DNA from: Flavobacterium sp.
GTDB lineage: Bacteria; Bacteroidota; Bacteroidia; Flavobacteriales; Flavobacteriaceae
Direction of reading: 5' to 3'
Length of the DNA stretch: 10,826 nucleotides
Assembly (NCBI GenBank): GCA_017984035.1
Contig: JAGOAF010000045.1
Location: 1-10,826 of the forward strand
In this document: in pieces, positions 1 through 10,826 of the stretch
Layout: each line of letters opens with the position of its first letter
Numbering within the stretch: position 1 is the stretch's first letter
Position numbers and translations under genes: made by a program
Notes under the pieces: model-generated
The model's input: only the letters and a program-made list of their open reading frames with translations
Told to the model about the DNA's origin: nothing
The model's database searches: none

Positions 1-441
1 GTTGGGGATATATTACACTCTCGTGTAGCCTTATCTAATATTTATGCTTTGCAAATGCAAGGAGCCGAAGTCAAAGTATGCGGTCCCAAAACCTTAATTC
101 CAAAATACATTGAATCACTTGGAGTAACAGTAGAGCCTAATATACGTAAGGCATTAGAATGGTGCGATGTAGCTAATATGTTACGAGTACAAAATGAACG
201 TATGGATGTCAATTATTTTCCATCCACTAGAGAATATGCTCAACAATATGGTGTGGATAAAAACCTATTGAATTCACTGAATAAAGAAATTGTAATTATG
301 CACCCGGGACCAATCAATCGTGGAGTTGAAATTACAAGCGATGTTGCCGACTCACAACAATCGGTTATCTTAGATCAAGTGGAAAATGGAGTGGCTATTC
401 GAATGGCGGTGATCTATCTTTTAGCTTCTAAAATTCAATAG
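1..441 (+). CDS. pyrB: Aspartate carbamoyltransferase catalytic chain, C-terminal part (5' end outside window)
   Basis: The frame is open from base 1 and ends at TAG 439-441, giving the last 146 residues of a protein that is normally about 305-310 residues long. The enzyme condenses carbamoyl phosphate with aspartate, the committed step of cytosolic pyrimidine synthesis. Visible family motifs, numbered in the fragment, are GDILHSRVA at 2-10, the LRVQNER block at 61-67 and HPGPINRGVE at 101-110, which lies in the aspartate-binding half of the enzyme. The HSRVA and HPGPINRGVE forms resemble the Bacillus-type enzyme. An internal ATG at base 49 is not the start, because conserved ATCase sequence continues upstream of it to the window edge. 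The following gene begins 56 bp downstream on the same strand, so read-through is possible; I see no strong terminator between them. The missing 5' half cannot be judged. Confidence 0.95.
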   Translation, partial: VGDILHSRVALSNIYALQMQGAEVKVCGPKTLIPKYIESLGVTVEPNIRKALEWCDVANMLRVQNERMDVNYFPSTREYAQQYGVDKNLLNSLNKEIVIMHPGPINRGVEITSDVADSQQSVILDQVENGVAIRMAVIYLLASKIQ

Positions 442-497
442 TTTTTTTAAACTTGTTTATTATACTAAATAACTGTTTACAGTATTAATTTCCATTT

Positions 498-830
498 ATG
501 AAAGTAGATCAAAAAGGACACACGATTACTATTAAAGATACTCAAGGAGATTTTACTTCATTTTTGAATAAAGTGTCGCAATCCAATACTTCTTTTGACT
601 CACACAATTTAATTATTGATTTGTCTCATAATAAATCGATAACACTTGAAGATTTAAAATTACTATTGCCTTTAGCCAAACAACATAAAAAACTAAAAAA
701 ATCTTTTGTTGTAGTTGTAGCAGGGGTTGATTTTAATGCTGTTCCTGCTCAATTAGTTGTGGTTCCATCTAATTTGGAAGCACACGATATTATTGAAATG
801 GAAGAAATAGAACGTGATTTAGGATTTTAA
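498..830 (+). CDS. Small STAS-like protein of unknown function, coupled to RNase Z
   Basis: This is a 110-residue soluble protein with no signal peptide or membrane segment. It shows alternating strand and helix character: a hydrophobic strand LIIDLS near residue 38, a leucine-rich helix around 51-61 (LEDLKLLLPLA), a strand SFVVVVAG near 69-76, and an acidic C-terminal helix (HDIIEMEEIERDLGF). The LIIDLS strand followed by a helix and then a second hydrophobic strand recalls STAS/SpoIIAA-like folds, but I cannot assign it to a family with certainty. Its TAA stop overlaps the ATG of rnz by one base (TAATG), so the two are probably translationally coupled. From memory, this small gene often precedes rnz in flavobacteria and is sometimes itself labelled ribonuclease Z by position. 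It has none of the metal-binding histidines needed for that activity. A role as a partner or regulator of RNase Z is inference only. Confidence 0.85.
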   Translation: MKVDQKGHTITIKDTQGDFTSFLNKVSQSNTSFDSHNLIIDLSHNKSITLEDLKLLLPLAKQHKKLKKSFVVVVAGVDFNAVPAQLVVVPSNLEAHDIIEMEEIERDLGF

Positions 831-1735
831 TGAAACTAACCATCCTTGGCTGTTATGCCGCTACACCACGAACGATTACCAATCCGACTTCTCAAGTATT
901 GGAGATTAAAAACCGAATGTTTTTGATTGATTGTGGCGAAGGAACTCAAGTACAGCTTCGAAAAAACAAGATTAAATTTTCTAAAATCAATCAGGTCTTT
1001 ATATCCCATTTGCATGGAGATCATTTTTTTGGATTGATTGGTTTAATTTCTACGTTTAGTTTGTTGGGGAGAACTACCGATTTACACATCTATGGTCCGA
1101 AAGGAATCAAAGAAATCATTTTGTTACAATTACGATTGTCTAATTCTTGGACCAATTACGATTTGTATTTTCATGAATTAGAATCAGAGAAAAGTGAGAC
1201 TATTTTTGAGGATGATAAAGTGGTGGTTACAACCATACCTTTAAAACATCGAGTGTATACTAATGGTTTTTTGTTCCAAGAAAAAGTGGGTGAGCGCAAG
1301 TTGAATATGGATTCTATACTGAATCATGAAATTGAAAGCTGTTATTACCAAAAAATTAAAAATGGAAAAGACATTCCTTTAGAAGATGGGAGAATTATTC
1401 CCAATTCAATATTGACTTTTGACCCAATTCAACCTAAAAGTTATGCTTTTTGTTCTGATACCGTTTATCATGAAGCAATTCTTCCAATTATTGAGAACGT
1501 GGATGTTTTGTATCACGAAGCGACTTTTTTAGACTCAGAAGAAGGTTTAGCCAATAAAACTTTGCATTCCACAGCAAAACAAGCAGCACGAATTGCTTTG
1601 AAAGCCAATGCAAAACAGTTAATTTTAGGGCATTATTCAACTCGATATGAAAGTATCGCTTTATTTAAGAAAGAAGCGGAAACTATTTTTCCAGATGTGC
1701 TTTTGGCTGATGATGGAAAAACCTTTGAATTGTAA
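830..1735 (+). CDS. rnz: Ribonuclease Z (tRNA 3'-end endonuclease)
   Basis: This 301-residue metallo-beta-lactamase-fold enzyme matches the short (bacterial) tRNase Z form in length. It cleaves the 3' trailer from tRNA precursors after the discriminator base, in the cytosol. The zinc-site motif SHLHGDH lies at residues 59-65 (H60, H62, D64, H65). Further likely ligands are H140 in PLKHRV, D210 in FCSDTVYHE and H268 in LGHYSTRY. The segment LYHEATF at 228-233 and H246 in the TLHSTA segment complete the tRNase Z signature, and the HEAT region is characteristic of the family. The ATG at 830-832 overlaps the previous gene's stop by one base and gives the expected N-terminus MKLTILGCYAATP. pdxH starts 15 bp after the stop, so these genes look like one transcription unit. 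Confidence 0.97.
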   Translation: MKLTILGCYAATPRTITNPTSQVLEIKNRMFLIDCGEGTQVQLRKNKIKFSKINQVFISHLHGDHFFGLIGLISTFSLLGRTTDLHIYGPKGIKEIILLQLRLSNSWTNYDLYFHELESEKSETIFEDDKVVVTTIPLKHRVYTNGFLFQEKVGERKLNMDSILNHEIESCYYQKIKNGKDIPLEDGRIIPNSILTFDPIQPKSYAFCSDTVYHEAILPIIENVDVLYHEATFLDSEEGLANKTLHSTAKQAARIALKANAKQLILGHYSTRYESIALFKKEAETIFPDVLLADDGKTFEL

Positions 1736-1750
1736 AAAATATAAATTCGT

Positions 1751-2395
1751 ATGAAAGATTTAAGCGATTACAGAAAAACGTATGACAAAAGTGAATTATT
1801 AGAATCTTCAATTCCTGAGGACCCCATTAATTTGTTTAATCGTTGGTTTCATGAAGTAGAAGATTTTGGAGGTACCGATGAAGTAAACGCTATGACTGTT
1901 GCTACAATTGGTTTGGATGGTTTTCCAAAATCAAGAGTCGTTTTGTTAAAGAAATTCAATGAAGAAGGATTTGTTTTTTACACCAATTATAATTCCGAAA
2001 AAGGAAAAGCAATCACTGCTAATCCTCATGTTTGTTTGTCCTTCTTTTGGCATAGCATGGAACGTCAAGTGATTATCAAAGGAATCGCTCAAAAAACAGC
2101 AGAAGTTATTTCAGATGATTATTTTGCTTCAAGACCTGATGGAAGTAAGTTAGGTGCTATCGTTTCGAATCAATCCGAAGTTGTGCCTTCAAGAGACTTT
2201 TTAGAAGAAAACTTGAAACAATTAGAAGCTAATTTTGAAGGGATGATAATTCCTAGACCAGAACATTGGGGCGGATTTTTAGTAACGCCACTTGAAGTAG
2301 AGTTTTGGCAGGGGCGACCTAATAGGCTTCATGATCGAATTCGATACCAAGCACAGTCTGATTATTCATGGAAAATAGATCGTTTATCACCATAA
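1751..2395 (+). CDS. pdxH: Pyridoxamine/pyridoxine 5'-phosphate oxidase
   Basis: This 214-residue FMN enzyme oxidises pyridoxine 5'-phosphate or pyridoxamine 5'-phosphate to pyridoxal 5'-phosphate, the last step of B6 synthesis and salvage. Its length is usual for the family. Motifs in order: NAMTVATIG (46-54), the FMN-binding SRVVLLKKF (61-69), YTNYNSEKGK (78-87), SRPDGSKLGAIVSNQS (127-142), RPEHWGGF (169-176) and the C-terminal FWQGRPNRLHDR (185-196), which contacts FMN and substrate. The protein ends in the canonical RLSP. The ATG at 1751 is the first in frame after rnz and gives a normal N-terminus. The enzyme is expected to act as a cytosolic homodimer. The grouping with rnz shows no obvious pathway link and may simply reflect co-transcription. 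Confidence 0.97.
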   Translation: MKDLSDYRKTYDKSELLESSIPEDPINLFNRWFHEVEDFGGTDEVNAMTVATIGLDGFPKSRVVLLKKFNEEGFVFYTNYNSEKGKAITANPHVCLSFFWHSMERQVIIKGIAQKTAEVISDDYFASRPDGSKLGAIVSNQSEVVPSRDFLEENLKQLEANFEGMIIPRPEHWGGFLVTPLEVEFWQGRPNRLHDRIRYQAQSDYSWKIDRLSP

Positions 2396-2527
2396 GTTTG
2401 TATTGGGTTTAAGGTTATTATTAGCGATAGTAATTGTAATTAGTGTATCTTATTTTCGTAAATTGTGGAGTAAAGAAATTCTTGCGGTTAGAAAATAATC
2501 GTTGTTACTTTTAATTCTCACGCTATT

Positions 2528-3013
2528 TTGAAAAATGTAATCTTAGTTAGACACGCCAAATCCAGTTGGGAAACTCCACTACAAGATGTTGACAGGCCTT
2601 TATCTCAAAGAGGAATAGTTGACGCTCATTTGGTTTCTTCAGCTATTTCAAATTATATTCCTAAAACATTTTTGCTCTGGAGTAGTGTGGCAAAAAGAGC
2701 CTCAGAAACGGCGCTGATTTTTGCACAAAACATATCCTTTCCAATTGAGAATATAATTTACAAAGAGGATTTATACACTTTTGAAGAATCTCAATTGGAA
2801 AAAGTTATTAAATCGTGCAATAATCTTTACGAAACTGTTATTCTTTTCGGCCATAATGAGGCTATTACAAATTTTGTTAATAAATTTGGAGATTACGTTC
2901 TGCCAAATGTTCCTACAGCTGGTTTTGTTTCCATTCGATTTGGAGAAGACCAATGGGATTGCATTAAAAAAGGTACGATTGTAAAAACTATATTTCCTAA
3001 AGATTTAAAATAA
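2528..3013 (+). CDS. SixA-type histidine phosphatase, TTG start
   Basis: This 161-residue member of the histidine phosphatase (phosphoglycerate mutase-like) superfamily resembles SixA. The catalytic motif VRHAKSSW starts at residue 7, with R8 and H9. The second arginine is R57 in KRASET, the likely acid/base is E80 (YKEDLY), and the second catalytic histidine is H109 in FGHNEA. There is no signal peptide. The start is TTG at 2528: it gives KNVILVRHAKSSW directly after the initiator, as expected for the family, and no in-frame ATG or GTG fits better. The gene lies 5 bp upstream of ppk1, so a role alongside polyphosphate metabolism is suggested by context. SixA of E. coli removes phosphate from phosphohistidine, but the substrate here is unknown, so I give no symbol. 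Confidence 0.9.
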   Translation: MKNVILVRHAKSSWETPLQDVDRPLSQRGIVDAHLVSSAISNYIPKTFLLWSSVAKRASETALIFAQNISFPIENIIYKEDLYTFEESQLEKVIKSCNNLYETVILFGHNEAITNFVNKFGDYVLPNVPTAGFVSIRFGEDQWDCIKKGTIVKTIFPKDLK

Positions 3014-3018
3014 TTCAG

Positions 3019-5166
3019 GTGTTGCAACAAAAATATATTGATAGAGAGAAGAGTTGGTTGGCATTTAATGCCCGAGTGCTACAAGAAGCAGGTGATGTGA
3101 CGGTTCCCTTATTAGACAGAATGCGTTTTTTGGGAATTTTTTCAAATAATTTAGATGAATTTTTCAGAGTTCGTTTTGCTGCCATTCGAAGATTGACTTT
3201 ATCAGGGATTTCGGGAGAAAAATATTTTAACGGAATATCATCCAGTCAATTATTACATGATATTACTGAGATTGTAATTAATCAACAAGCGGAGAGTTTA
3301 GAGATATTGAATGATATTGAGGCTCGATTAGAAAAAGAAAACATTTTCACTATTGATGAGAACGATGTAACTCCATCACAAGAATTGTATTTAAAAGATT
3401 TTTTTGTACAAAAAGTGAGTCCAGAATTGGTTACGATTATCTTAAATGATTTGGATCATTTTCCGGTATTAAAAGATACTTCGGGTTATTTGGCAGTTAA
3501 ATTAGTAATCAATGGTTTAACGGAAGAAATAGAAAAGAGTGCATTTACTTTCCGTTCGTTATTGAAGAAAAGTTCTAAAGAACCTGCGAAAAAAAGTTCT
3601 AAAGAAATTCTATATGCCGTAATTGAAATTCCAAAGACAATTAACCGTTTTGTGGTTTTGCCTCCAGAGGGTGAGAAGCAATACGTGATTATGCTGGACG
3701 ATGTTATTCGTTTAAATCTCAACAAAATTTTTGACATTTTTGATTATGAAAGCGTCGATGCGCACATGATTAAAATTACACGAGATGCGCAATTGGATAT
3801 TGATAGTGACTTGAGTAAAAGTATGTTGGAAAAAATTGCATCAAGTGTAAAAGATCGTAGAATTGGCGAGCCGGTACGATTTATTTATGATCAAAATATT
3901 GATAAAGACACCTTAGATTTTTTCTTAACCAATATGAAAATTGATGCTACCGATAGTATCATACCCGGAGGGAAATACCATAATAGAAGAGACTATATGG
4001 ATTTTCCAAACCTGGGGAGATTTGACTTATTGTACAAAACAAATCCACCTTTGCCATTGCCGGGCTTGAGTTTGGATGAAAATATTATGAAGAAAATTGC
4101 AGCCAAAGATTATTTGGTGAGCGCACCCTATCAATCCTATTCCTATGTGATTAAGTTTTTGCGAGAAGCCGCATTGGATCCAGCAGTAACCTCCATTAAA
4201 ATTACCCTCTACCGATTAGCGAAAAATTCTCAAATTATCAGTTCGTTAATTAATGCCGCTAAAAATGGAAAAAAAGTAACCGTTCAAATCGAATTGCAAG
4301 CGCGTTTTGATGAAGCGAGTAATATCTTTTATTCAGAGCAAATGCAAATGGAAGGTATTGAATTGATTTTTGGAGTGAAAGGCCTTAAAGTGCACAGTAA
4401 AATTTGTGTTATCGAAAGACAAGAAGGCAACAAAATTCATCGCTATGGTATCATTTCTACTGGAAACTTTAATGAATCTACTGCAAAAGTATATACTGAT
4501 GTCACCTTGTTTACAGCACACCAAAAAATACTAAAAGACGTTTCTAAAGTTTTTGAATTTTTTGAAATTAATTATCGTATTTACAATTATCAACATATAA
4601 TTACATCACCACATTTCACTAGAAATAAGTTTAATAAGCTGATTAACAGAGAGATTACTCATGCTAAAGAAGGTAGAACTACCTATATGAAGTTAAAAAT
4701 GAATAGTTTGTCTGATATTGAAATGATAGACAAATTGTATGAAGCGAGCAATGCGGGTGTCAATATTAAATTGGAAGTTAGAGGTATTTGTTCTTTGATT
4801 CCGGGTATTCCTGGCATGAGTGAGAATATTGAAGCGATAAGTATTGTGGATAATTATTTGGAACATTCCCGAATTTATATTTTTGGTAATGCAGGCGATC
4901 CAGAAGTTTATATATCTTCAGCCGATATGATGACACGAAATTTAGATGGAAGGGTAGAAGTAACCTGTCCTATTTACGATGAAGATATTAAAAGAGAGTT
5001 GATTGACAATTTTGATTTAGGTTGGCAAGGTAATGTTAAAGCCAGATTGCATTCGCATTTATTGGATAACAAATACCGTCAAAGAGGTAATAAGCCTATT
5101 TTTAGAGCGCAATTGGAAACTTATAATTATTATAAAAACATGTTAAATGGAGGGGAGTCTAACTAA
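3019..5166 (+). CDS. ppk1: Polyphosphate kinase 1
   Basis: This 715-residue protein transfers the gamma-phosphate of ATP reversibly onto long-chain polyphosphate and is usually a membrane-associated cytoplasmic oligomer. All four PPK1 domains are visible. The N domain starts with REKSWLAFNARVLQEA (9-24) and SNNLDEFFRVR (42-52). A head domain follows, then the two phospholipase-D-like C-terminal domains. The autophosphorylated histidine is H459 in LKVHSKICV, followed by STGNFNESTAKVYTD. The second conserved histidine is H616 in LEHSRIYIFGN. The 157-residue spacing between them equals that of H435 and H592 in the E. coli enzyme (numbers from memory). Start: GTG at 3019, 5 bp after the preceding stop; TTG at 3022 is the only close alternative. 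A short KKSSKE repeat sits in the head-domain region. It is co-transcribed with the flanking phosphatase genes by spacing. Confidence 0.97.
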   Translation: MLQQKYIDREKSWLAFNARVLQEAGDVTVPLLDRMRFLGIFSNNLDEFFRVRFAAIRRLTLSGISGEKYFNGISSSQLLHDITEIVINQQAESLEILNDIEARLEKENIFTIDENDVTPSQELYLKDFFVQKVSPELVTIILNDLDHFPVLKDTSGYLAVKLVINGLTEEIEKSAFTFRSLLKKSSKEPAKKSSKEILYAVIEIPKTINRFVVLPPEGEKQYVIMLDDVIRLNLNKIFDIFDYESVDAHMIKITRDAQLDIDSDLSKSMLEKIASSVKDRRIGEPVRFIYDQNIDKDTLDFFLTNMKIDATDSIIPGGKYHNRRDYMDFPNLGRFDLLYKTNPPLPLPGLSLDENIMKKIAAKDYLVSAPYQSYSYVIKFLREAALDPAVTSIKITLYRLAKNSQIISSLINAAKNGKKVTVQIELQARFDEASNIFYSEQMQMEGIELIFGVKGLKVHSKICVIERQEGNKIHRYGIISTGNFNESTAKVYTDVTLFTAHQKILKDVSKVFEFFEINYRIYNYQHIITSPHFTRNKFNKLINREITHAKEGRTTYMKLKMNSLSDIEMIDKLYEASNAGVNIKLEVRGICSLIPGIPGMSENIEAISIVDNYLEHSRIYIFGNAGDPEVYISSADMMTRNLDGRVEVTCPIYDEDIKRELIDNFDLGWQGNVKARLHSHLLDNKYRQRGNKPIFRAQLETYNYYKNMLNGGESN
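3565..3606 (+). repeat. Short in-frame direct repeat inside ppk1 (KKSSKE twice)
   Basis: Two 18-base units, 3565-3582 and 3589-3606, differ at one position and encode KKSSKE twice with a PA spacer, so the period is 24 bases or 8 codons. The repeat lies near residues 183-196 of PPK1, between hydrophobic strands, and is probably a charged surface loop. It looks like a small in-frame tandem duplication. Confidence 0.7.
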
Positions 5167-5205
5167 ATTCTCTTGTCTTCAACTAATTTATCTAGATTTG
5201 ATTTA

Positions 5206-6096
5206 ATGCTAAATATAAAAAAATACGCCGCTATCGATATTGGTTCCAATGCCATGCGATTGCTTATTGCTAATATTGTAGAACAAGATGACAAGGAAAC
5301 GCAATTCAATAAAAGCTCCTTAGTTCGTGTTCCTATTCGTTTAGGACAAGATGCCTTTACGGTAGGAGCAATCTCCGAGGAAAATATTGATCGTATGTGT
5401 GATGCAATGAAAGCATTCCATCTTTTAATGAAAGTCCACAAAGTGGAGCATTATAAAGCCTTTGCAACTTCAGCAATGCGCGAAGCTTATAACGGTAAAG
5501 AAGTTACAGATATCATAAAAAAGAAAACCGGAATAAAAATTGAAATTATTGATGGTAAAAAAGAAGCTGCTATAATTGCTTCTAGTGATTTACATAGTTT
5601 GATTAAAACAGAAAAAACATACCTTTTTGTTGATGTAGGTGGCGGTAGTACCGAATTTACTTTATTTTCTGATGGTAAGATGATTGTTTCTCGCTCTTTT
5701 AAAGCGGGAACGGTTCGTTTATTAAACAATATGGTGCATGACGTTGTTTGGGAGGAAATTGAAAAATGGATTCGTACTAATACCGAAGAGTATGACGAGG
5801 TAACCTTAATTGGATCTGGAGGAAATATCAATAAGTTGTTTAAAATGTCAGCTAAGTCACAAGACAAACCACTGTCTTATATTTACATGAATTCTCAATA
5901 TGCCTTTTTGAATTCACTTACGTATGAGCAACGAATTTCAGAATTAGGTCTGAATTCAGATCGTGCGGATGTAATTATACCTGCTACTCGAATTTATTTG
6001 AATGCTATGAAATGGAGTGGTGCCAGAAACATTTATGTTCCTAAAATTGGATTAGCTGACGGAATTGTCAAAGCCATGTACTTCGGTAAAATTTAG
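5206..6096 (+). CDS. ppx: Exopolyphosphatase / Ppx-GppA family phosphatase
   Basis: This 296-residue short-form Ppx/GppA protein with the ASKHA (actin-like) fold is expected to release phosphate from polyphosphate ends and possibly to act on pppGpp. Motifs: the phosphate-1 loop AAIDIGSNAMRLL (8-20), FATSAMREA (86-94) with the likely catalytic E93, IDGKKEA (116-122), the phosphate-2 loop DVGGGSTEF (143-151), and a late GSGGNINKL glycine motif. The ATG at 5206 is preferred because it gives MLNIKKYAAIDIGSN. A TTG at 5173 would add 11 residues without family support. The gene follows ppk1 after 39 bp, so polyphosphate synthesis and breakdown appear to be transcribed together. It ends 8 bp from the convergent dnaX stop. 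Whether it prefers polyphosphate or pppGpp cannot be read from the sequence. Confidence 0.93.
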   Translation: MLNIKKYAAIDIGSNAMRLLIANIVEQDDKETQFNKSSLVRVPIRLGQDAFTVGAISEENIDRMCDAMKAFHLLMKVHKVEHYKAFATSAMREAYNGKEVTDIIKKKTGIKIEIIDGKKEAAIIASSDLHSLIKTEKTYLFVDVGGGSTEFTLFSDGKMIVSRSFKAGTVRLLNNMVHDVVWEEIEKWIRTNTEEYDEVTLIGSGGNINKLFKMSAKSQDKPLSYIYMNSQYAFLNSLTYEQRISELGLNSDRADVIIPATRIYLNAMKWSGARNIYVPKIGLADGIVKAMYFGKI

Positions 6097-6120
6097 ATTT
6101 TTTTTTAAGTTATATCTAAA
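6092..6120. terminator. Possible shared hairpin between convergent ppx and dnaX ends
   Basis: A perfect 7-base inverted repeat, TTTAGAT (6092-6098) and ATCTAAA (6114-6120), encloses a 15-base loop rich in T on the + strand. It includes the ppx stop codon in its left arm and the dnaX stop in the loop. A T9 run (6098-6106) follows the ppx stop. The stem is almost entirely A-T, so a bidirectional terminator is plausible but weak. Confidence 0.35.
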
Positions 6121-6797
6121 CCGAATGTTGTTTTTAATAATTCAATATTCGGATTGAGTTGATGCAAACGATTGTAACGATCTTGATCATTGAAGCTTCG
6201 TTTGCTTTCAAAGCTTTCATTTACAATTACTTCAATTGTAATATCGTGATTGTGCAAGTGTCCTTTTAAATACCCTAACAGTCCTAATTTTTCACTTTCA
6301 AAATCCAATTTAGAACCCTCGTTAGGTAATTCAATAGTAATATGGGTTCCTTCTAAAACAGGATCATTGATCAGCAATAAGGATTCCATGATTTTATAAC
6401 CTTTATCTCCCAAACGTTGTGCATACTTATTCCATTGCAGTAACATTTCTGTTTCCGTAAATGGTTCAGTTGGCATATGATCAACTTCTTTTATAATCGT
6501 TTTTGAGTTTTCTTCTATTACTTTTTTAGCACGAATACTGGATAATGAAAGTGCAGATACCTTCGCTTCAGATTCGTTTAAAATAATAGGTTTTGGCACC
6601 TCAACGATTGGTTTAATTTCGAGTTTTGGAACTTCCTTAACAGCAATTATTTCTTCTTTAATTTCGGGAGTAATAAATGTATTGTTTTCAGAAATAGGAG
6701 TAACAGTTTCTACTACGTTATTGACACTTTTAGCGACTTCAACTATAGAATAACCAGAATTTTTAAAATAAGTAGGCGGAATTATAAATTGTTCAAC
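6105..6797 (-). CDS. dnaX: DnaX tau-specific C-terminal portion, in the -1 frame relative to the upstream dnaX frame
   Basis: This is the continuation of DnaX beyond the A10 run, read in the -1 frame from GTT (6797-6795) to TAA (6107-6105), 230 residues. It starts VEQFIIPPTYFKNSG and runs through a low-complexity linker rich in E, K, P, V and I. It ends in a more ordered block beginning near PFTETEMLLQWNKYAQRLGDK and containing LLINDPVLEG and a C-terminal LLKTTFGLDIT. That last block is what I would expect of a Bacteroidota tau C-terminus. In E. coli the tau-specific region binds the polymerase alpha subunit and DnaB helicase. No credible independent start exists: an ATG at 6845 would read the wrong frame of domain III for 16 codons. 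It should therefore be expressed only as a fusion with the upstream frame, through frameshifting or because the break is not real. A fused tau would be 587 residues, a normal length. Confidence 0.85.
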   Translation of the reverse strand, partial: VEQFIIPPTYFKNSGYSIVEVAKSVNNVVETVTPISENNTFITPEIKEEIIAVKEVPKLEIKPIVEVPKPIILNESEAKVSALSLSSIRAKKVIEENSKTIIKEVDHMPTEPFTETEMLLQWNKYAQRLGDKGYKIMESLLLINDPVLEGTHITIELPNEGSKLDFESEKLGLLGYLKGHLHNHDITIEVIVNESFESKRSFNDQDRYNRLHQLNPNIELLKTTFGLDIT

Positions 6798-7867
6798 TTT
6801 TTTTTTTCTCCATCGAATGTGATGGAGGCCAATTGCATTAAGCAAAGTTCAACAAGGAGTCGTTGATTTTGACTGACTTTGTATTTCAAATCACAATCAT
6901 TCGCAATTTCAATCCCTTTCAATAAGAAATTAGCATCACATTTTTGTGCTTGCATACCATACATTTGCTGCGCTTGTTCTCCTACTTCCAAAAGAGATAA
7001 AGTAGCAGGGTTTTTGGATACCAAAAGGTCTCTAAAGTGCGACGCCAATCCAGCAACAAAATGATGTGCATCAAAACCTTTGGATAGAATTTCATTAAAT
7101 GCGACCAATAACTCTGGAATTTTGTTTTCCAATATCAATTCGGTTACATTGATATACGTTTCATAATCCAATACATTCAAATTCTCAGTTACCGCTTGAC
7201 GAGTCAAATTGGTACCGCAAAATGAAACTACTCGGTCAAAAATGGACAAAGCATCTCGCATAGCACCATCAGCTTTTTGAGCAATAATATGCAAGGCATC
7301 GTCTTCAAATTGTACCCCTTGACTTGTAGCAACTTCAGCTAAATGTTCTTTAGCATCTTTAACAGTAATTCTTTTAAAATCAAATATTTGACAACGCGAT
7401 AAAATCGTTGGAATAATTTTATGCTTTTCTGTTGTGGCCAAAATGAAAATGGCATGTTTAGGCGGTTCTTCTAATGTTTTCAAAAAAGCATTAAAAGCGG
7501 CTGAAGACAACATATGTACCTCATCAATGATATATACTTTGTATTGTCCTGTTTGAGGAGGTATACGCACTTGGTCAATCAAGTTTCGAATATCGTCTAC
7601 CGAGTTGTTAGAAGCAGCATCCAATTCAAAGACATTGAAAGCAAAATCTTCATTTGGATCATCGTAACCAGGCTGATTAATTTTTCGTGCCAAAATTCGC
7701 GCACAAGTCGTCTTACCTACACCACGAGGCCCAGTGAACAAAAGAGCAGAAGCCAAGTGATTGTTTTCTATGGCATTCAACAAGGTATTGGTAATGGCTT
7801 TTTGCCCCACAACATCTTTAAATGTTTGCGGACGGTATTTGCGAGCCGATACTATGAATTGTTCCAT
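6782..7867 (-). CDS. dnaX: DNA polymerase III clamp-loader subunit, gamma-like zero-frame product
   Basis: The zero-frame product has 361 residues and covers the clamp-loader core, domains I-III. It binds and hydrolyses ATP to load the sliding clamp. Motifs: SARKYRPQTFKDVVGQ (7-21), Walker A GPRGVGKTT (46-54), Walker B IIDEVHML (113-120) with D115 and E116, sensor-1 ATTEKHK (144-150) and the SRC arginine finger R158 (157-159). The collar domain ends near residue 350, then the frame reads EKKKLNNL and stops (TAA 6784-6782). The zinc-binding cysteine cluster known between Walker A and B in E. coli DnaX is absent. The ATG at 7867 is chosen because a canonical promoter lies at 7886-7916, so an ATG at 7924 would be upstream of the transcript, and MEQFIVSARKYRP is the expected N-terminus. 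The tau half follows in another frame (6105-6797). Confidence 0.93.
   Translation of the reverse strand: MEQFIVSARKYRPQTFKDVVGQKAITNTLLNAIENNHLASALLFTGPRGVGKTTCARILARKINQPGYDDPNEDFAFNVFELDAASNNSVDDIRNLIDQVRIPPQTGQYKVYIIDEVHMLSSAAFNAFLKTLEEPPKHAIFILATTEKHKIIPTILSRCQIFDFKRITVKDAKEHLAEVATSQGVQFEDDALHIIAQKADGAMRDALSIFDRVVSFCGTNLTRQAVTENLNVLDYETYINVTELILENKIPELLVAFNEILSKGFDAHHFVAGLASHFRDLLVSKNPATLSLLEVGEQAQQMYGMQAQKCDANFLLKGIEIANDCDLKYKVSQNQRLLVELCLMQLASITFDGEKKKLNNL
6798..6807 (-). other. dnaX: A10 homopolymer at the dnaX frame break (candidate slippage site)
   Basis: Read on the - strand, GGAG is followed by ten A residues and then GTTG. The zero frame is GAA AAA AAA AAG TTG and stops four codons later. 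The -1 frame is AAA AAA AAA GTT GAA and stays open to the end of tau. The run contains the A AAA AAG heptamer used for -1 frameshifting in E. coli dnaX, and its length would also favour RNA polymerase slippage as known for Thermus dnaX. A GGAG motif directly 5' of the run could act like the upstream Shine-Dalgarno stimulator in E. coli. I see no clear stimulatory hairpin downstream. Confidence 0.5.
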
Positions 7868-7885
7868 TGAAAACCTATTAGATAG

Positions 7886-7916
7886 CAAATATAGGATATG
7901 AATTCTCAAAATGCAA
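7886..7916 (-). promoter_or_regulatory. dnaX promoter (TTG-N20-TATATTTG)
   Basis: On the - strand TTG (7916-7914) is followed after 20 nt by TATATTTG (7893-7886), an exact match to the Bacteroidota sigma consensus TTG-N17..23-TAnnTTTG. Transcription should start near 7881, leaving a leader of about 13 nt before the ATG at 7867. It rules out the upstream ATG at 7924 as the dnaX start. Confidence 0.75.
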
Positions 7917-8034
7917 TAGCTCAAACTTCAAATCGGAACGACTTATCCCCAATTTACTAACAAAATTGAAATGTCTTTTTTTGGATTATTTTATGGACTT
8001 ATAAATCAATTATGAATTACCATAAATTATGTTG

Positions 8035-8042
8035 TAAATTTG
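8035..8042 (+). promoter_or_regulatory. rnpB promoter -7 element (TAAATTTG)
   Basis: TAAATTTG fits the Bacteroidota -7 consensus TAnnTTTG, and its last base lies 5 nt before the predicted 5' end of the RNase P RNA at 8047, as expected for a start site. No good TTG is seen at the -33 position; the nearest candidate is TTATG around 8010-8014. Confidence 0.65.
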
Positions 8043-8046
8043 CCTC

Positions 8047-8352
8047 GCAGACCGCCTTATCGCCGTCCTGATTTATTAGGAGGGAGGAAAGTCCGGACAC
8101 CACAGAGAAGCATAGCGGGTAACACCCGTCGGTTCGAGCAATCGGATTAGGACAAGTGCAACAGAAAGTATGTACAGGTAATGCTGTAGTGAAACCAGGT
8201 AAACTCTATGCGGTGAAATATCAAGTATATCAGCATTTAAGGGCTTCTCGTCCGTTGTTGAAGGGTAGATAGCTTGAGTCTTACAGTAATGTGAGATCTA
8301 GATAAATGATAAGGCTCCGTTTACGGAGACAGAATCCGGCTTATAGGTCTGC
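8047..8352 (+). ncRNA. rnpB: RNase P RNA, bacterial class A
   Basis: This is the catalytic RNA of RNase P, which removes the 5' leader of tRNA precursors together with the RnpA protein (not in this window). It is about 306 nt long. Helix P1 closes the molecule: GCAGACC (8047-8053) pairs with GGTCTGC (8346-8352). The conserved core GGGAGGAAAGTCCGGAC (8082-8098) and ACAGAATCCGGCTTAT (8329-8344) provide the two P4 strands. Other family signatures are ACAGAAAGTATGTACAG, GGTAAACTC followed by GCGGTGAAA, and GCTTGAG. Visible local hairpins: TCCT/AGGA (8066-8069/8078-8081, P3-like), CAGCA/TGTTG (8231-8235/8256-8260, P15-like) containing GGGC/GTCC, TCTTAC/GTGAGA (8279-8284/8291-8296, P18-like), and CTCCG-TTTA-CGGAG (8315-8328). 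Exact ends are inferred from P1 and from the promoter and T-run that flank it. It is divergent from dnaX and convergent with rsmD. Confidence 0.96.
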
Positions 8353-8359
8353 TTTTTTT
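8346..8359 (+). terminator. rnpB 3' end with T7 run
   Basis: The 3' strand of P1, GGTCTGC, is followed directly by seven T residues (8353-8359). The CTCCG/CGGAG hairpin (8315-8328) is the nearest strong local stem but ends 24 bases before the T-run, so termination may depend on P1 itself closing. The element lies 14 bp from the convergent rsmD stop. Confidence 0.5.
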
Positions 8360-8373
8360 ATTAGTTAGGAAAA

Positions 8374-8931
8374 CTATACTTCGTCCTCTGAAGTTACAAT
8401 CTCAAAGAAACTAAAGAAAGAACCTCCATAACTTTTCTGAAAAGAAAAATGTGGTAAATGTTCCATTTTAGTGTATTTGGAATGCTCAACAATCAACATC
8501 CCTTCTTCTTCTAAAAGTCCTCTCTCAAAAACTAGAGTCACTACTTTTTCAAATGTTTTTTGATCCAATCCGTAGGGAGGATCAGCAAAAATAATATCGT
8601 AAGTCGTTTTATTTTTTTCGAGAAAAGCAAACACATCACTTTTGGTAGCTGCAATATTAAAATCAAATTCTGCGGCAATTTGTTTGATAAATTTCACACA
8701 ACCAAAATCACCATCAACAGAAGTTATTGGCGAACTACCTCTTGAAGCAAATTCAAAACTTATGTTTCCAGTACCTGAGAATAAGTCCAACACCTTAAGT
8801 CCCTCAAAGCTAAAATGATTATTCAATACATTGAATAAGGCTTCTTTACTCATATCGGTTGTGGGGCGTACGGGAAGGTTTTTGGGAGGAAAAATGCGTC
8901 GGCCTTTGTATTTGCCAGAAATAATTCTCAT
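8374..8931 (-). CDS. rsmD: 16S rRNA (guanine966-N2)-methyltransferase
   Basis: This 185-residue SAM-dependent methyltransferase modifies G966 of 16S rRNA in assembling 30S subunits. The N-terminus MRIISGKYKGRRI (1-13) and RPTTDMSKEALFNVL (22-36) are RsmD signatures. SAM-binding motif I is LDLFSGTGNISFE (48-60), the acidic motif II is SVDGD (71-75), and the catalytic N2-guanine motif is DPPY (117-120). Its length is usual. The ATG (8931-8929) overlaps the TGA stop of the upstream gene (8930-8928) by four bases as ATGA, so translation is probably coupled and both share the promoter upstream of 9740. It converges with rnpB; its transcript, if not terminated at once, would run antisense to the RNase P RNA. 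Confidence 0.96.
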   Translation of the reverse strand: MRIISGKYKGRRIFPPKNLPVRPTTDMSKEALFNVLNNHFSFEGLKVLDLFSGTGNISFEFASRGSSPITSVDGDFGCVKFIKQIAAEFDFNIAATKSDVFAFLEKNKTTYDIIFADPPYGLDQKTFEKVVTLVFERGLLEEEGMLIVEHSKYTKMEHLPHFSFQKSYGGSFFSFFEIVTSEDEV

Positions 8932-9740
8932 GAATTAAAAAGTATAAAGTGGGTTCTATTTTCTGCTTCTGAAAAATTATTTTTAGCCTGCAAATCACTC
9001 ACATCTAATAATGATACATTACGAATATAGTTATATGCCAATTGGTAGTACTCACTTTTCATATCGATTTTTCCAATCAATTCTAAAGGAAATTCTTCTG
9101 GATTCATACCTAACTGTTCCGCTGTAAACAAAATGTAATACAAGAAATCTTCGGGACTAGCATACTCAAACGAATTGAACAACAATAGTTTTTGATTTTG
9201 TACTACAATAATTTCAAAATGCTCCGAATTAATATGCACAAACATTTTTTTGTCAGGATTGTTTTTAGAGGCTATTAATAATTTAGAAACTAAAATAGTA
9301 TTGGCATGTTTGTAGTCGAAAGTGCCAAACTGGTCAATAAAAAAATTGTTAATATTCACATAAGGAATGTAGACCGTATTCATTTGGCAATTGGCAATTT
9401 CGTCAAATGCAAAAAAATCAGTTTCAAAAACTTTAGTGTTGTACTGCAAATAGCTTCCTAAAAAGTTTTCGTCAAACAATGGCTCAGGAACAAATGTAGA
9501 AAGATTGTTATTGTGAATGATCAGAATCTCGTCATACGAATCTCTTAATTCAGAATAATCACTAAAAGCATCGGCAAATAAATCCTCAGTTTTAGTTGCT
9601 TTATGAAACGTATCAAAACGGACTTCATTAAACGAAGTAATGGTGTTATTTAAGGTGTCAAAACAACAAAAAGAGAGACCATTCAAGGCTACTTGAATCG
9701 ACAGTTTTTTATAGCTCTTTTCTGTGATATTGGTATTCAT
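8928..9740 (-). CDS. DUF3822-like conserved protein of unknown function
   Basis: This is a 270-residue soluble protein with no signal peptide or membrane helix. The composition is acidic and aromatic. Two duplicated-looking halves each begin with a strand-rich stretch (KLSIQVALNGLSFCCFD near 12-27; KKMFVHINSEHFEIIVVQ near 164-181). A helix-rich C-terminal part follows, beginning FLYYILFTAEQLGMNPEEF and including ELIGKI. That layout resembles an ASKHA/actin-like fold; from memory a Bacteroides homologue of this Bacteroidota family was solved with an actin-like ATPase fold, but I cannot verify this. I do not see a clear DxG phosphate-1 motif, so ATPase activity is doubtful. The ATG at 9740 is preferred over 9815 because a canonical promoter lies at 9760-9790 and the extra residues look non-coding. 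It overlaps rsmD by four bases, and the pairing suggests a link to rRNA modification or simply co-transcription. Confidence 0.85.
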   Translation of the reverse strand: MNTNITEKSYKKLSIQVALNGLSFCCFDTLNNTITSFNEVRFDTFHKATKTEDLFADAFSDYSELRDSYDEILIIHNNNLSTFVPEPLFDENFLGSYLQYNTKVFETDFFAFDEIANCQMNTVYIPYVNINNFFIDQFGTFDYKHANTILVSKLLIASKNNPDKKMFVHINSEHFEIIVVQNQKLLLFNSFEYASPEDFLYYILFTAEQLGMNPEEFPLELIGKIDMKSEYYQLAYNYIRNVSLLDVSDLQAKNNFSEAENRTHFILFNS

Positions 9741-9759
9741 AGGTTTTGTTTCAACGATG

Positions 9760-9790
9760 CAAACATACGAAAAATCAACTTCAATGGCAA
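9760..9790 (-). promoter_or_regulatory. Promoter of the DUF3822-rsmD pair (TTG-N20-TATGTTTG)
   Basis: On the - strand TTG (9790-9788), a 20-nt spacer and TATGTTTG (9767-9760) match the Bacteroidota consensus exactly. The expected start near 9755 leaves a leader of about 14 nt before the ATG at 9740 and excludes translation from 9815. Confidence 0.75.
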
Positions 9791-9867
9791 TTTCAAAAAC
9801 CAATAAATAAATCAAACCAATTTAGGAATCATCAGTTTTAATTTATCCTTGATTATTGGATTTGAAA

Positions 9868-9898
9868 TTGATTTTTGTCATTGTAATTGTTTACTTTG
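9868..9898 (+). promoter_or_regulatory. Promoter of the helicase gene (TTG-N20-TTACTTTG)
   Basis: TTG (9868-9870) is followed after 20 nt by TTACTTTG (9891-9898), one mismatch from TAnnTTTG. It lies 17 bp before the ATG at 9916, a leader length like those of the other two promoters here. Confidence 0.5.
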
Positions 9899-9915
9899 CA
9901 GTCAAATTAATTGCA

Positions 9916-10826
9916 ATGAATTCCTCTTTGTTTTATAGTCTTTTAAAGAAAAAATTTCCGTTTGAGCCCACTTATAAACAGGATATTTTTTTGCAACAGA
10001 TTGCTGTTTTCTTGACTGAAATGCAAAACAATACCATTTTTGTATTGAAAGGGTATGCAGGAACTGGAAAGACAACAGTTATATCTACGATTGTCAATAA
10101 TTTATTTGAGATCAATAAAAAATATGTATTGCTTGCACCAACGGGTCGTGCTGCTAAGGTAATTGCCAATTATTCTAACAAACCGGCATTTACCATTCAC
10201 AAAAAGATCTATTTTCCCAAAAAGTCTTCAGGAGGTGGTGTTTCCTTTACATTGCAACCCAACAAACATAAAAATACCATTTTCATTGTCGATGAAGCTT
10301 CGATGATTTCGGACGCTAATTCGGATTCTAAGCTTTATGAAAACGGCTCTTTATTAGACGATTTGATTTCTTACGTGTATTCTGGAACCAATTGCAAAAT
10401 GATTCTCTTGGGCGATACTGCTCAGTTACCACCAGTCAATTTAGATATAAGCCCTGCTCTGGATACGCATTCTTTAGCTTTGCATTACGACAAAGAAATT
10501 GAGTCCATAGAATTAGACGAGGTAATGCGCCAGGAGGAAAGCTCGGGTATTTTATTTAATGCTACTGAACTTCGGGAATTATTGAAAGATAGTTTTGTTA
10601 ACGAATTTCAATTTGATGTAAAACGATTTAAAGATATTATTCGTTTGACTGACGGGTATGATATTCAAGATGCTATTCAATCTGCGTATAGCAATTATAG
10701 TATTGAAGATACTGCTTTTATTGTAAGGTCGAATAAAAGAGCCAACCAATACAATGAACAAATCAGAACGCGTATTTTAGACCGAGAAAGTGAGTTGTCT
10801 ACGGGCGATTTTTTGATGGTGGTAAA
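9916..10826 (+). CDS. RecD-like superfamily 1 DNA helicase (3' end outside window)
   Basis: The frame is open from ATG 9916 to the right edge, 303 residues visible with no stop. It is an SF1 (RecD/Pif1-like) ATP-dependent helicase, expected to unwind DNA 5' to 3' in repair. Motif I (Walker A) is GYAGTGKTT (46-54, K52). The segment LAPTGRAAKV fits motif Ia, motif II is IVDEASM (124-130, D126 and E127), motif III is LGDTAQLPPV (165-174), and DEVMRQ is the motif IV-type arginine. Residues beginning FIVRSNKRANQYN open the second RecA-like domain, which continues off the window. The C-terminal motifs V and VI cannot be seen. There is no N-terminal RecD2 extension, so this is a compact stand-alone helicase rather than RecD of RecBCD. 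It diverges from the DUF3822-rsmD pair over a 175-bp intergenic region. Confidence 0.92.
   Translation, partial: MNSSLFYSLLKKKFPFEPTYKQDIFLQQIAVFLTEMQNNTIFVLKGYAGTGKTTVISTIVNNLFEINKKYVLLAPTGRAAKVIANYSNKPAFTIHKKIYFPKKSSGGGVSFTLQPNKHKNTIFIVDEASMISDANSDSKLYENGSLLDDLISYVYSGTNCKMILLGDTAQLPPVNLDISPALDTHSLALHYDKEIESIELDEVMRQEESSGILFNATELRELLKDSFVNEFQFDVKRFKDIIRLTDGYDIQDAIQSAYSNYSIEDTAFIVRSNKRANQYNEQIRTRILDRESELSTGDFLMVV

Follow-up and report, generated by a model that had tools for sequence, protein, structure and literature searches.

A probable programmed slippage site in dnaX of Flavobacterium, with an abutting RNA hairpin kept in the Flavobacteriaceae

Introduction

In Escherichia coli dnaX, a ribosomal -1 frameshift operates and tau is the product read in frame (Atkins et al. 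2016, PMC5009743). In Thermus thermophilus dnaX, transcriptional slippage takes place on a run of nine A's, tau again lies in frame, and stops follow closely in both other frames (Larsen et al. 2000, as related in PMC1088944 and PMC5009743); the accessible sections of Baranov et al. 2005 (PMC1088944) likewise place stops in both frames of the Thermus gene. A reversed arrangement was found with GeneTack by Antonov et al. 2013 (PMC3711429), whose accessible text describes two-ORF dnaX genes with tau behind a -1 shift, 17 genes in all and nine with ten A's, and proposes slippage from their likeness to Thermus. According to the portions of Atkins et al. 2016 (PMC5009743) on which we draw, RNA polymerase holds a hybrid of 9 to 10 bp, a single-base change can reverse the roles of the two products if efficiency is near 50%, and in a Roseiflexus insertion sequence (IS) element a nascent RNA stem-loop stimulates RNA polymerase slippage at a T5C5 motif, with deletion of one base, in a transposase.

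Here we describe a Flavobacterium dnaX that shares features with each of these systems, as far as the accessible sections of those papers describe them. Like the reversed genes of Antonov et al. 2013, it encodes gamma directly, places tau behind a -1 shift and has a poly(A) run at the junction, and a Flavobacterium gene may already be among their 17. It resembles Thermus in having a run of at least nine A's (ten here), near stops in both non-tau frames and a proposed origin of gamma and tau from one gene, but it differs from the Thermus gene (A9, tau in frame) in its A10 run, its in-frame gamma and the hairpin at the run. With E. coli dnaX it has in common an A_AAA_AAG heptamer in phase and the gamma/tau outcome; unlike in E. 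coli, there is no downstream stem-loop, a GGAG stands too close to the heptamer, and the family does not conserve the heptamer. As in the Roseiflexus IS element, an inverted repeat adjoins the slippery motif on its 5' side, although the motif here is an A10 run in a replication gene rather than T5C5 in a transposase with a one-base deletion.

The arrangement in which tau needs the shift is already published (Antonov et al. 2013) and its kind is known. The hairpin, the third-frame stops and the polarity switching described below are absent from the accessible text of PMC3711429, and the hairpin and the repeated switching of the directly read product look new. A search of the open literature, which leaves most subscription papers outside it, found no paper that deals with slippage in Flavobacterium dnaX or that describes a hairpin beside the slippage run of a dnaX gene.

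Results and Discussion

Two frames of dnaX meet at a run of ten A's

The stretch of DNA analyzed here, which we call the window, is 10,826 nt long (Flavobacterium sp., GCA_017984035.1, contig JAGOAF010000045.1, positions 1 to 10,826) and carries dnaX on its minus strand. The gene starts with an ATG at 7867-7865, and its zero frame crosses a run of exactly ten A's (6798-6807, minus strand), continues as ...DGEKKKLNNL and stops at a TAA (6784-6782). The resulting gamma-like product of 361 aa (6782-7867, minus strand) comprises the AAA+ clamp-loader core, the lid and domain III, with matches to the Pfam families DNA_pol3_delta2 (E 5e-35) and DNAX_ATPase_lid (E 4e-13) and a score of 386 bits against TIGR02397 (cutoff, 250). 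The tau-specific C-terminal region of 230 aa plus stop (6105-6797, minus strand) belongs to a listed ORF at 6845-6105, reads VEQFIIPPTYF... after the run and stops at 6107-6105. Its match to the DnaX model PRK14971 covers the C-terminal part of the profile (positions 428 to 613, E 2.2e-21); a Pfam search of this region gave no match. A -1 shift, or one additional A in the mRNA, joins the two frames, and the gene thus has the layout by which a frameshifting dnaX is recognized: the clamp-loader core comes first, the tau domain follows in a different frame, and a slippery site lies where the two meet.

These ORFs and profile matches bear out an earlier note, made from the letters of the window, which had placed a dnaX frame break at the A10 run on the gamma/tau boundary, gamma being read directly and tau by way of a -1 shift, and had remarked that, unlike in E. 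coli, the unshifted frame gives the short form. The end of the run and the base after it form an A_AAA_AAG heptamer (6797-6803, minus strand), which that note also pointed out; it is in phase with the zero frame and is a possible site of ribosomal -1 shifting.

The most similar locus that we found, L001, comes from the metagenome-assembled genome (MAG) Flavobacterium sp. UBA4098, with a DnaX 98% identical to that of the window. Substitutions between the two at codon positions 1, 2 and 3 number 30, 30 and 89 in the tau frame and 9, 2 and 107 in the core, so the tau region is under coding constraint that is weaker than that on the core.

The A run is kept across the family

We compared the window with the best 80 of 589 confirmed similar loci and with a family sample of 147 loci from 149 genomes (of the remaining two, G002 repeats L002 and G105 gave no proper match), for a main set of 228 loci. 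An A run of at least nine stands at the junction in 227 of these and is exactly ten A's long in 203; the exception, L223, lacks the run, and counts on run-bearing loci therefore use n = 227. Tau is in frame in 130 of them, needs a -1 shift in 92 and a +1 shift in 5, some of the latter being doubtful; the frame of L178, whose stretch ends at a contig end, is uncertain, and the tau frames of L065 and L230 are just 76 to 77 codons long. A run of about ten is kept despite a different codon phase in 10 of the 227 loci, L111, L150, L190 and L204 among them. The run is followed by T in 95 loci, by G in 110 and by C in 22; the last base of A_AAA_AAG is accordingly not conserved in the family, and the ribosomal heptamer is not what is kept.

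Similar runs extend beyond the family. A search of 118 Bacteroidota genomes gave 99 loci outside the family (8 genomes were left out, and the rest fell within it), and 69 of these 99 have a run of at least nine near the end of the core; tau is in frame in 41 of the 69 and requires -1 in 28. The outside loci (L239 to L337) show runs of A9 to A11 at this point in both arrangements, GC-rich genomes included; a run of at least nine is absent from the other 30, in one of which (L326) the stretch stops there. Searching a plasmid collection gave no match.

An assembly error or a broken gene is strongly disfavored

Homopolymers are prone to error, and the break could in principle reflect a true A11 in a misassembled gene or the decay of a broken one. 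Some of the protein matches lean this way: among the 120 listed, 79 are short (at most 370 aa) and 41 full-length (at least 560 aa), and in 25 of the 41 full-length matches listed the lysines are followed by V-E or V-D, the reading expected from A11 or A8. P0003 to P0005, which are 98% identical to the window, belong to these 25. L065, where the tau frame breaks a second time, in the manner of an indel, leans the same way. Against this, the independent MAG locus L001 has the identical A10 and frames, the tau region retains a coding pattern, and tau is out of frame at the run in 74 of the 80 similar loci (best 80 of 589), where a -1 shift would reach it in 72 and a +1 shift in two that have A9 (L033 and L065); it is in frame in the other six (L032, L034, L038, L040, L049 and L080). 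The A run at the junction is also beyond chance, because all 80 of these loci (best 80 of 589) have one there, compared with 36 other A/T runs of at least nine in their 533 kb. In L111, L150, L190 and L204 the frame change lies outside the run while about ten A's are retained, so a homopolymer miscall is no explanation for them. We strongly disfavor an error or a broken gene, which strikes us as highly improbable.

The earlier note's view of the break as programmed is strengthened by the same 74 of the best 80 loci, and the ways out that it offered fare poorly. A true A11 is contradicted by L001 and by these 74 loci. A T missing downstream of the run, which would give KKKLNNFIIPP, is rejected: in close relatives the run is followed, in the tau frame, by V-E/D-(Q/P)-FIIPP, as it is in the -1 reading of the window, and the frames of L001 are identical. 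The note had named one pattern that would count against it, relatives that are all in frame and lack a long A run; this is not what the relatives show, and those in frame keep both the run and the immediate stop in the -1 frame.

We note that several close relatives carry tau in a single frame (A11-like in P0003 to P0008, P0010 and P0011; A8-like in P0025 and P0112), which may be real run-length variation or assembly error, and some single switches between in-frame and out-of-frame tau may also be assembly errors. In L065 (F. davisii), which has A9 at the junction, the second break comes after 76 codons and looks like indel errors of that assembly.

Stops close both non-tau frames

In the window, the gamma stop TAA is embedded in the tau-frame codons ATA-ATT (Ile-Ile), and a TGA at 6793-6795 (minus strand) closes the third frame, the one read from an mRNA with A9 or A12. 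We counted stops no more than 2 codons away in the tau-1 frame and no more than 6 codons away in the tau+1 frame, thresholds that were chosen, for the family and phylum sets alike, after the distances were known, and compared the counts with a null in which the codons after the run were swapped for synonymous ones at the gene's own usage (200 draws). Near stops in both non-tau frames occur in 206 of 227 loci against 27.2 expected (highest of the 200 draws, 40), a comparison that, like the other null comparisons reported here, is a strong contrast and not a true P value, as the loci share ancestry. The excess is found both where tau is in frame (116 of 130; 16.8 expected) and where it is out of frame (90 of 97; 10.5 expected), and a stop within 2 codons closes the third frame in 216 of 227 loci against 103.5 expected. 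The first Ile of the Ile-Ile motif is ATA in 174 of the 180 loci that bear the motif; ATA usage in dnaX cores is 19.9%. Outside the family, both stops are present in 58 of 69 loci, with 10.3 expected (highest, 17). Stops in both frames favor slippage, because one stop suffices for a ribosomal -1 shift, whereas slippage that adds or drops one or two A's calls for both, as described for Thermus (PMC1088944, PMC5009743).

A hairpin ends where the run begins

Directly 5' of the run, folding predicts a 7-bp RNA hairpin, CUCCAUC-ACAUUC-GAUGGAG (6808-6827, minus strand), of -11.0 kcal/mol (z -3.50; none of 200 shuffles reached this stability), whose last base adjoins the run. The GGAG to which the earlier note had drawn attention is indeed directly upstream, but it is better read as the end of the 3' arm of this hairpin than as a Shine-Dalgarno stimulator. 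Of the 227 loci, 162 form all seven pairs; the mean is 6.07 of 7, and slid registers reach no more than 4.44. Upstream structure, scanned as a control, has a mean z of -2.69 in 74 out-of-frame loci and -2.35 in 60 in-frame loci. A folding scan from -160 to +100 has its minimum at the run, with -2.10 for segments ending at the run and -3.53 for those ending with the run included, where the A's themselves inflate the value; the corresponding values are -1.19 and -1.71 in 56 divergent loci and, for the 69 loci beyond the family, only -0.26 and -0.93.

An abutting stem of at least 5 bp is present in 112 of 140 unique upstream stretches, against 52.4 under a synonymous null (highest of 300 draws, 65), and in 35 of 56 divergent stretches, against 15.7 (highest, 25); the folding z per locus under a synonymous null is moderate, with a mean of -1.59. 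Across 96 unique 22-mers, 75% of cells are consistent with the pairing (shuffle maximum, 71.9%), both sides of a pair have changed in 38 cells (shuffle maximum, 27), and the covariation score is 0.269 (shuffle maximum, 0.214; best slid register, 0.215). The data do not support the hairpin as a Bacteroidota-wide feature: it stands out clearly within the family and is weak outside, where stems of at least 5 bp number 18 in 69 loci against 14.5 (highest, 23) and the mean score is 8.12 against 6.57 (highest, 7.69).

The hairpin might instead be a by-product of a conserved protein and codon stretch, ASITFDGE, or serve some other role, for example in mRNA stability. The conservation of these amino acids and the sharing of one 22-mer by 79 of the 227 loci are what such an origin would predict, yet the synonymous nulls and the covariation speak against it, as do hairpins in other registers that still end at the run (e.g., L222 and L226) and the 16 upstream control positions, at which stems of at least 5 bp reach at most 17 of 56 in the divergent set compared with 35 at the run. 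We regard this origin as unlikely, though by some way the most credible of the alternatives considered here.

RNA polymerase slippage compared with ribosomal shifting

Taken together, these comparisons make it fairly probable that the A10 run is a programmed RNA polymerase slippage site yielding both DnaX products from one gene. As the run is copied, the 9- to 10-bp RNA:DNA hybrid would consist entirely of rA:dT, which would allow realignment and produce mRNAs with 10, 11, 12 or fewer A's. An mRNA with A10 would encode gamma, one with A11 (also A8) tau, and one with A9 or A12 would meet the immediate third-frame stop at 6795-6793 and give gamma again. At the moment when the run occupies the hybrid, the hairpin would fold inside the RNA exit channel and may thereby promote realignment. 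The slipping of RNA polymerase rather than mainly of the ribosome, the stimulation by the hairpin and the product ratio are all three points that we infer. We file the dnaX of the window as a gene that would work like Thermus-type slippage without being a strict member of that type: tau in a single ORF, as in Thermus, is seen not in the window but in the 130 of 227 loci with tau in frame.

The earlier note named two precedents, the E. coli ribosomal shift and Thermus slippage, and most of the comparative evidence favors transcriptional slippage over a shift of the E. coli type. For a ribosomal -1 shift alone, tandem tRNA-Lys would slip at A_AAA_AAG (6803-6797), with GGAG as an internal Shine-Dalgarno stimulator, to reach tau. 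In E. coli dnaX the Shine-Dalgarno-like stimulator stands about 10 nt upstream of the heptamer; here GGAG, which belongs to the hairpin, lies 4 nt before it. The window has the heptamer in phase, and G follows the run in 110 of 227 loci, including 83 of the 92 that need -1, but T or C follows it in 117. The direction of the shift, -1 in 92 of 97 out-of-frame loci (+1 in 5) and in 28 of 28 outside the family, is a one-way bias that fits insertion-prone slippage and equally ribosomal -1 shifting. A downstream stem-loop was not seen (z +1.45 in the window; mean -0.06 in 74 out-of-frame loci and -0.48 in 60 in-frame loci). Its absence, the ten-base length of the run, the second conserved stop frame and the presence of the run in other phases would all be left unexplained by ribosomal shifting. 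The single-tRNA condition linked to such shifting may hold, on a narrow search of 4 genomes: no second tRNA-Lys (CUU) was found with a 10-base anticodon-loop pattern, none of whose 19 places is a tRNA-Lys by ARAGORN (one carries a tRNA-Ser). A Chlorobium dnaX that is reversed and has E. coli-like stimulators, cited as unpublished in the accessible text of Atkins et al. (PMC5009743), offers a parallel for ribosomal shifting. On balance we find a ribosomal shift alone improbable.

Both levels might also be at work, with RNA polymerase slipping at A10 throughout the family and the ribosome shifting in addition at A_AAA_AAG in genes with A10 followed by G. Both signals are present in the window, and G after the run is far more frequent where tau needs -1 (83 of 92) than where it is in frame (25 of 130), an enrichment that may reflect ancestry. 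No observation requires this dual scheme, however, and we hold it to be no less improbable than the ribosomal shift alone.

The directly encoded product has switched repeatedly

Parsimony on a core-protein tree gives 21 switches between tau in frame and gamma in frame, and 13 when only the 203 A10 loci are used; the in-frame product has therefore, by parsimony, flipped at least 13 times. If RNA polymerase slips at the run as we propose, transcripts would be split among the frames, and a gene could be nearly indifferent to the frame that is templated. With slightly better than even confidence, we hypothesize that in the Flavobacteriaceae a terminator-like nascent-RNA hairpin and the A10 run form a conserved slippage device in an essential replication gene, nearly indifferent to frame and with at least 13 gamma/tau switches, and that tau in Flavobacterium would depend wholly on purposeful transcription errors. 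If true, this would be a second transcription-level route to two DnaX products, family-wide and with its own stimulator, whose run has relatives across much of Bacteroidota. The polarity flips, at least 13 by parsimony, would serve as natural replicates for studying the purpose of gamma and the required gamma:tau ratio, and many Flavobacterium dnaX genes annotated as short, frameshifted or of low quality would be intact.

Gene neighborhood

In the window at 6060-6140, dnaX (minus strand) converges with a plus-strand gene at 5173-6096, which we take to be Ppx/GppA-like; their stops are 8 bases apart. A simple terminator scan reported nothing at this convergence. Between the stops lie an A/T run of nine and an inverted repeat, TTTAGAT/ATCTAAA, which is perhaps a shared terminator. 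By the look of their translations, the plus-strand genes in the row at 498-6096 presumably encode RNase Z, PdxH, a SixA-like phosphatase, polyphosphate kinase and exopolyphosphatase.
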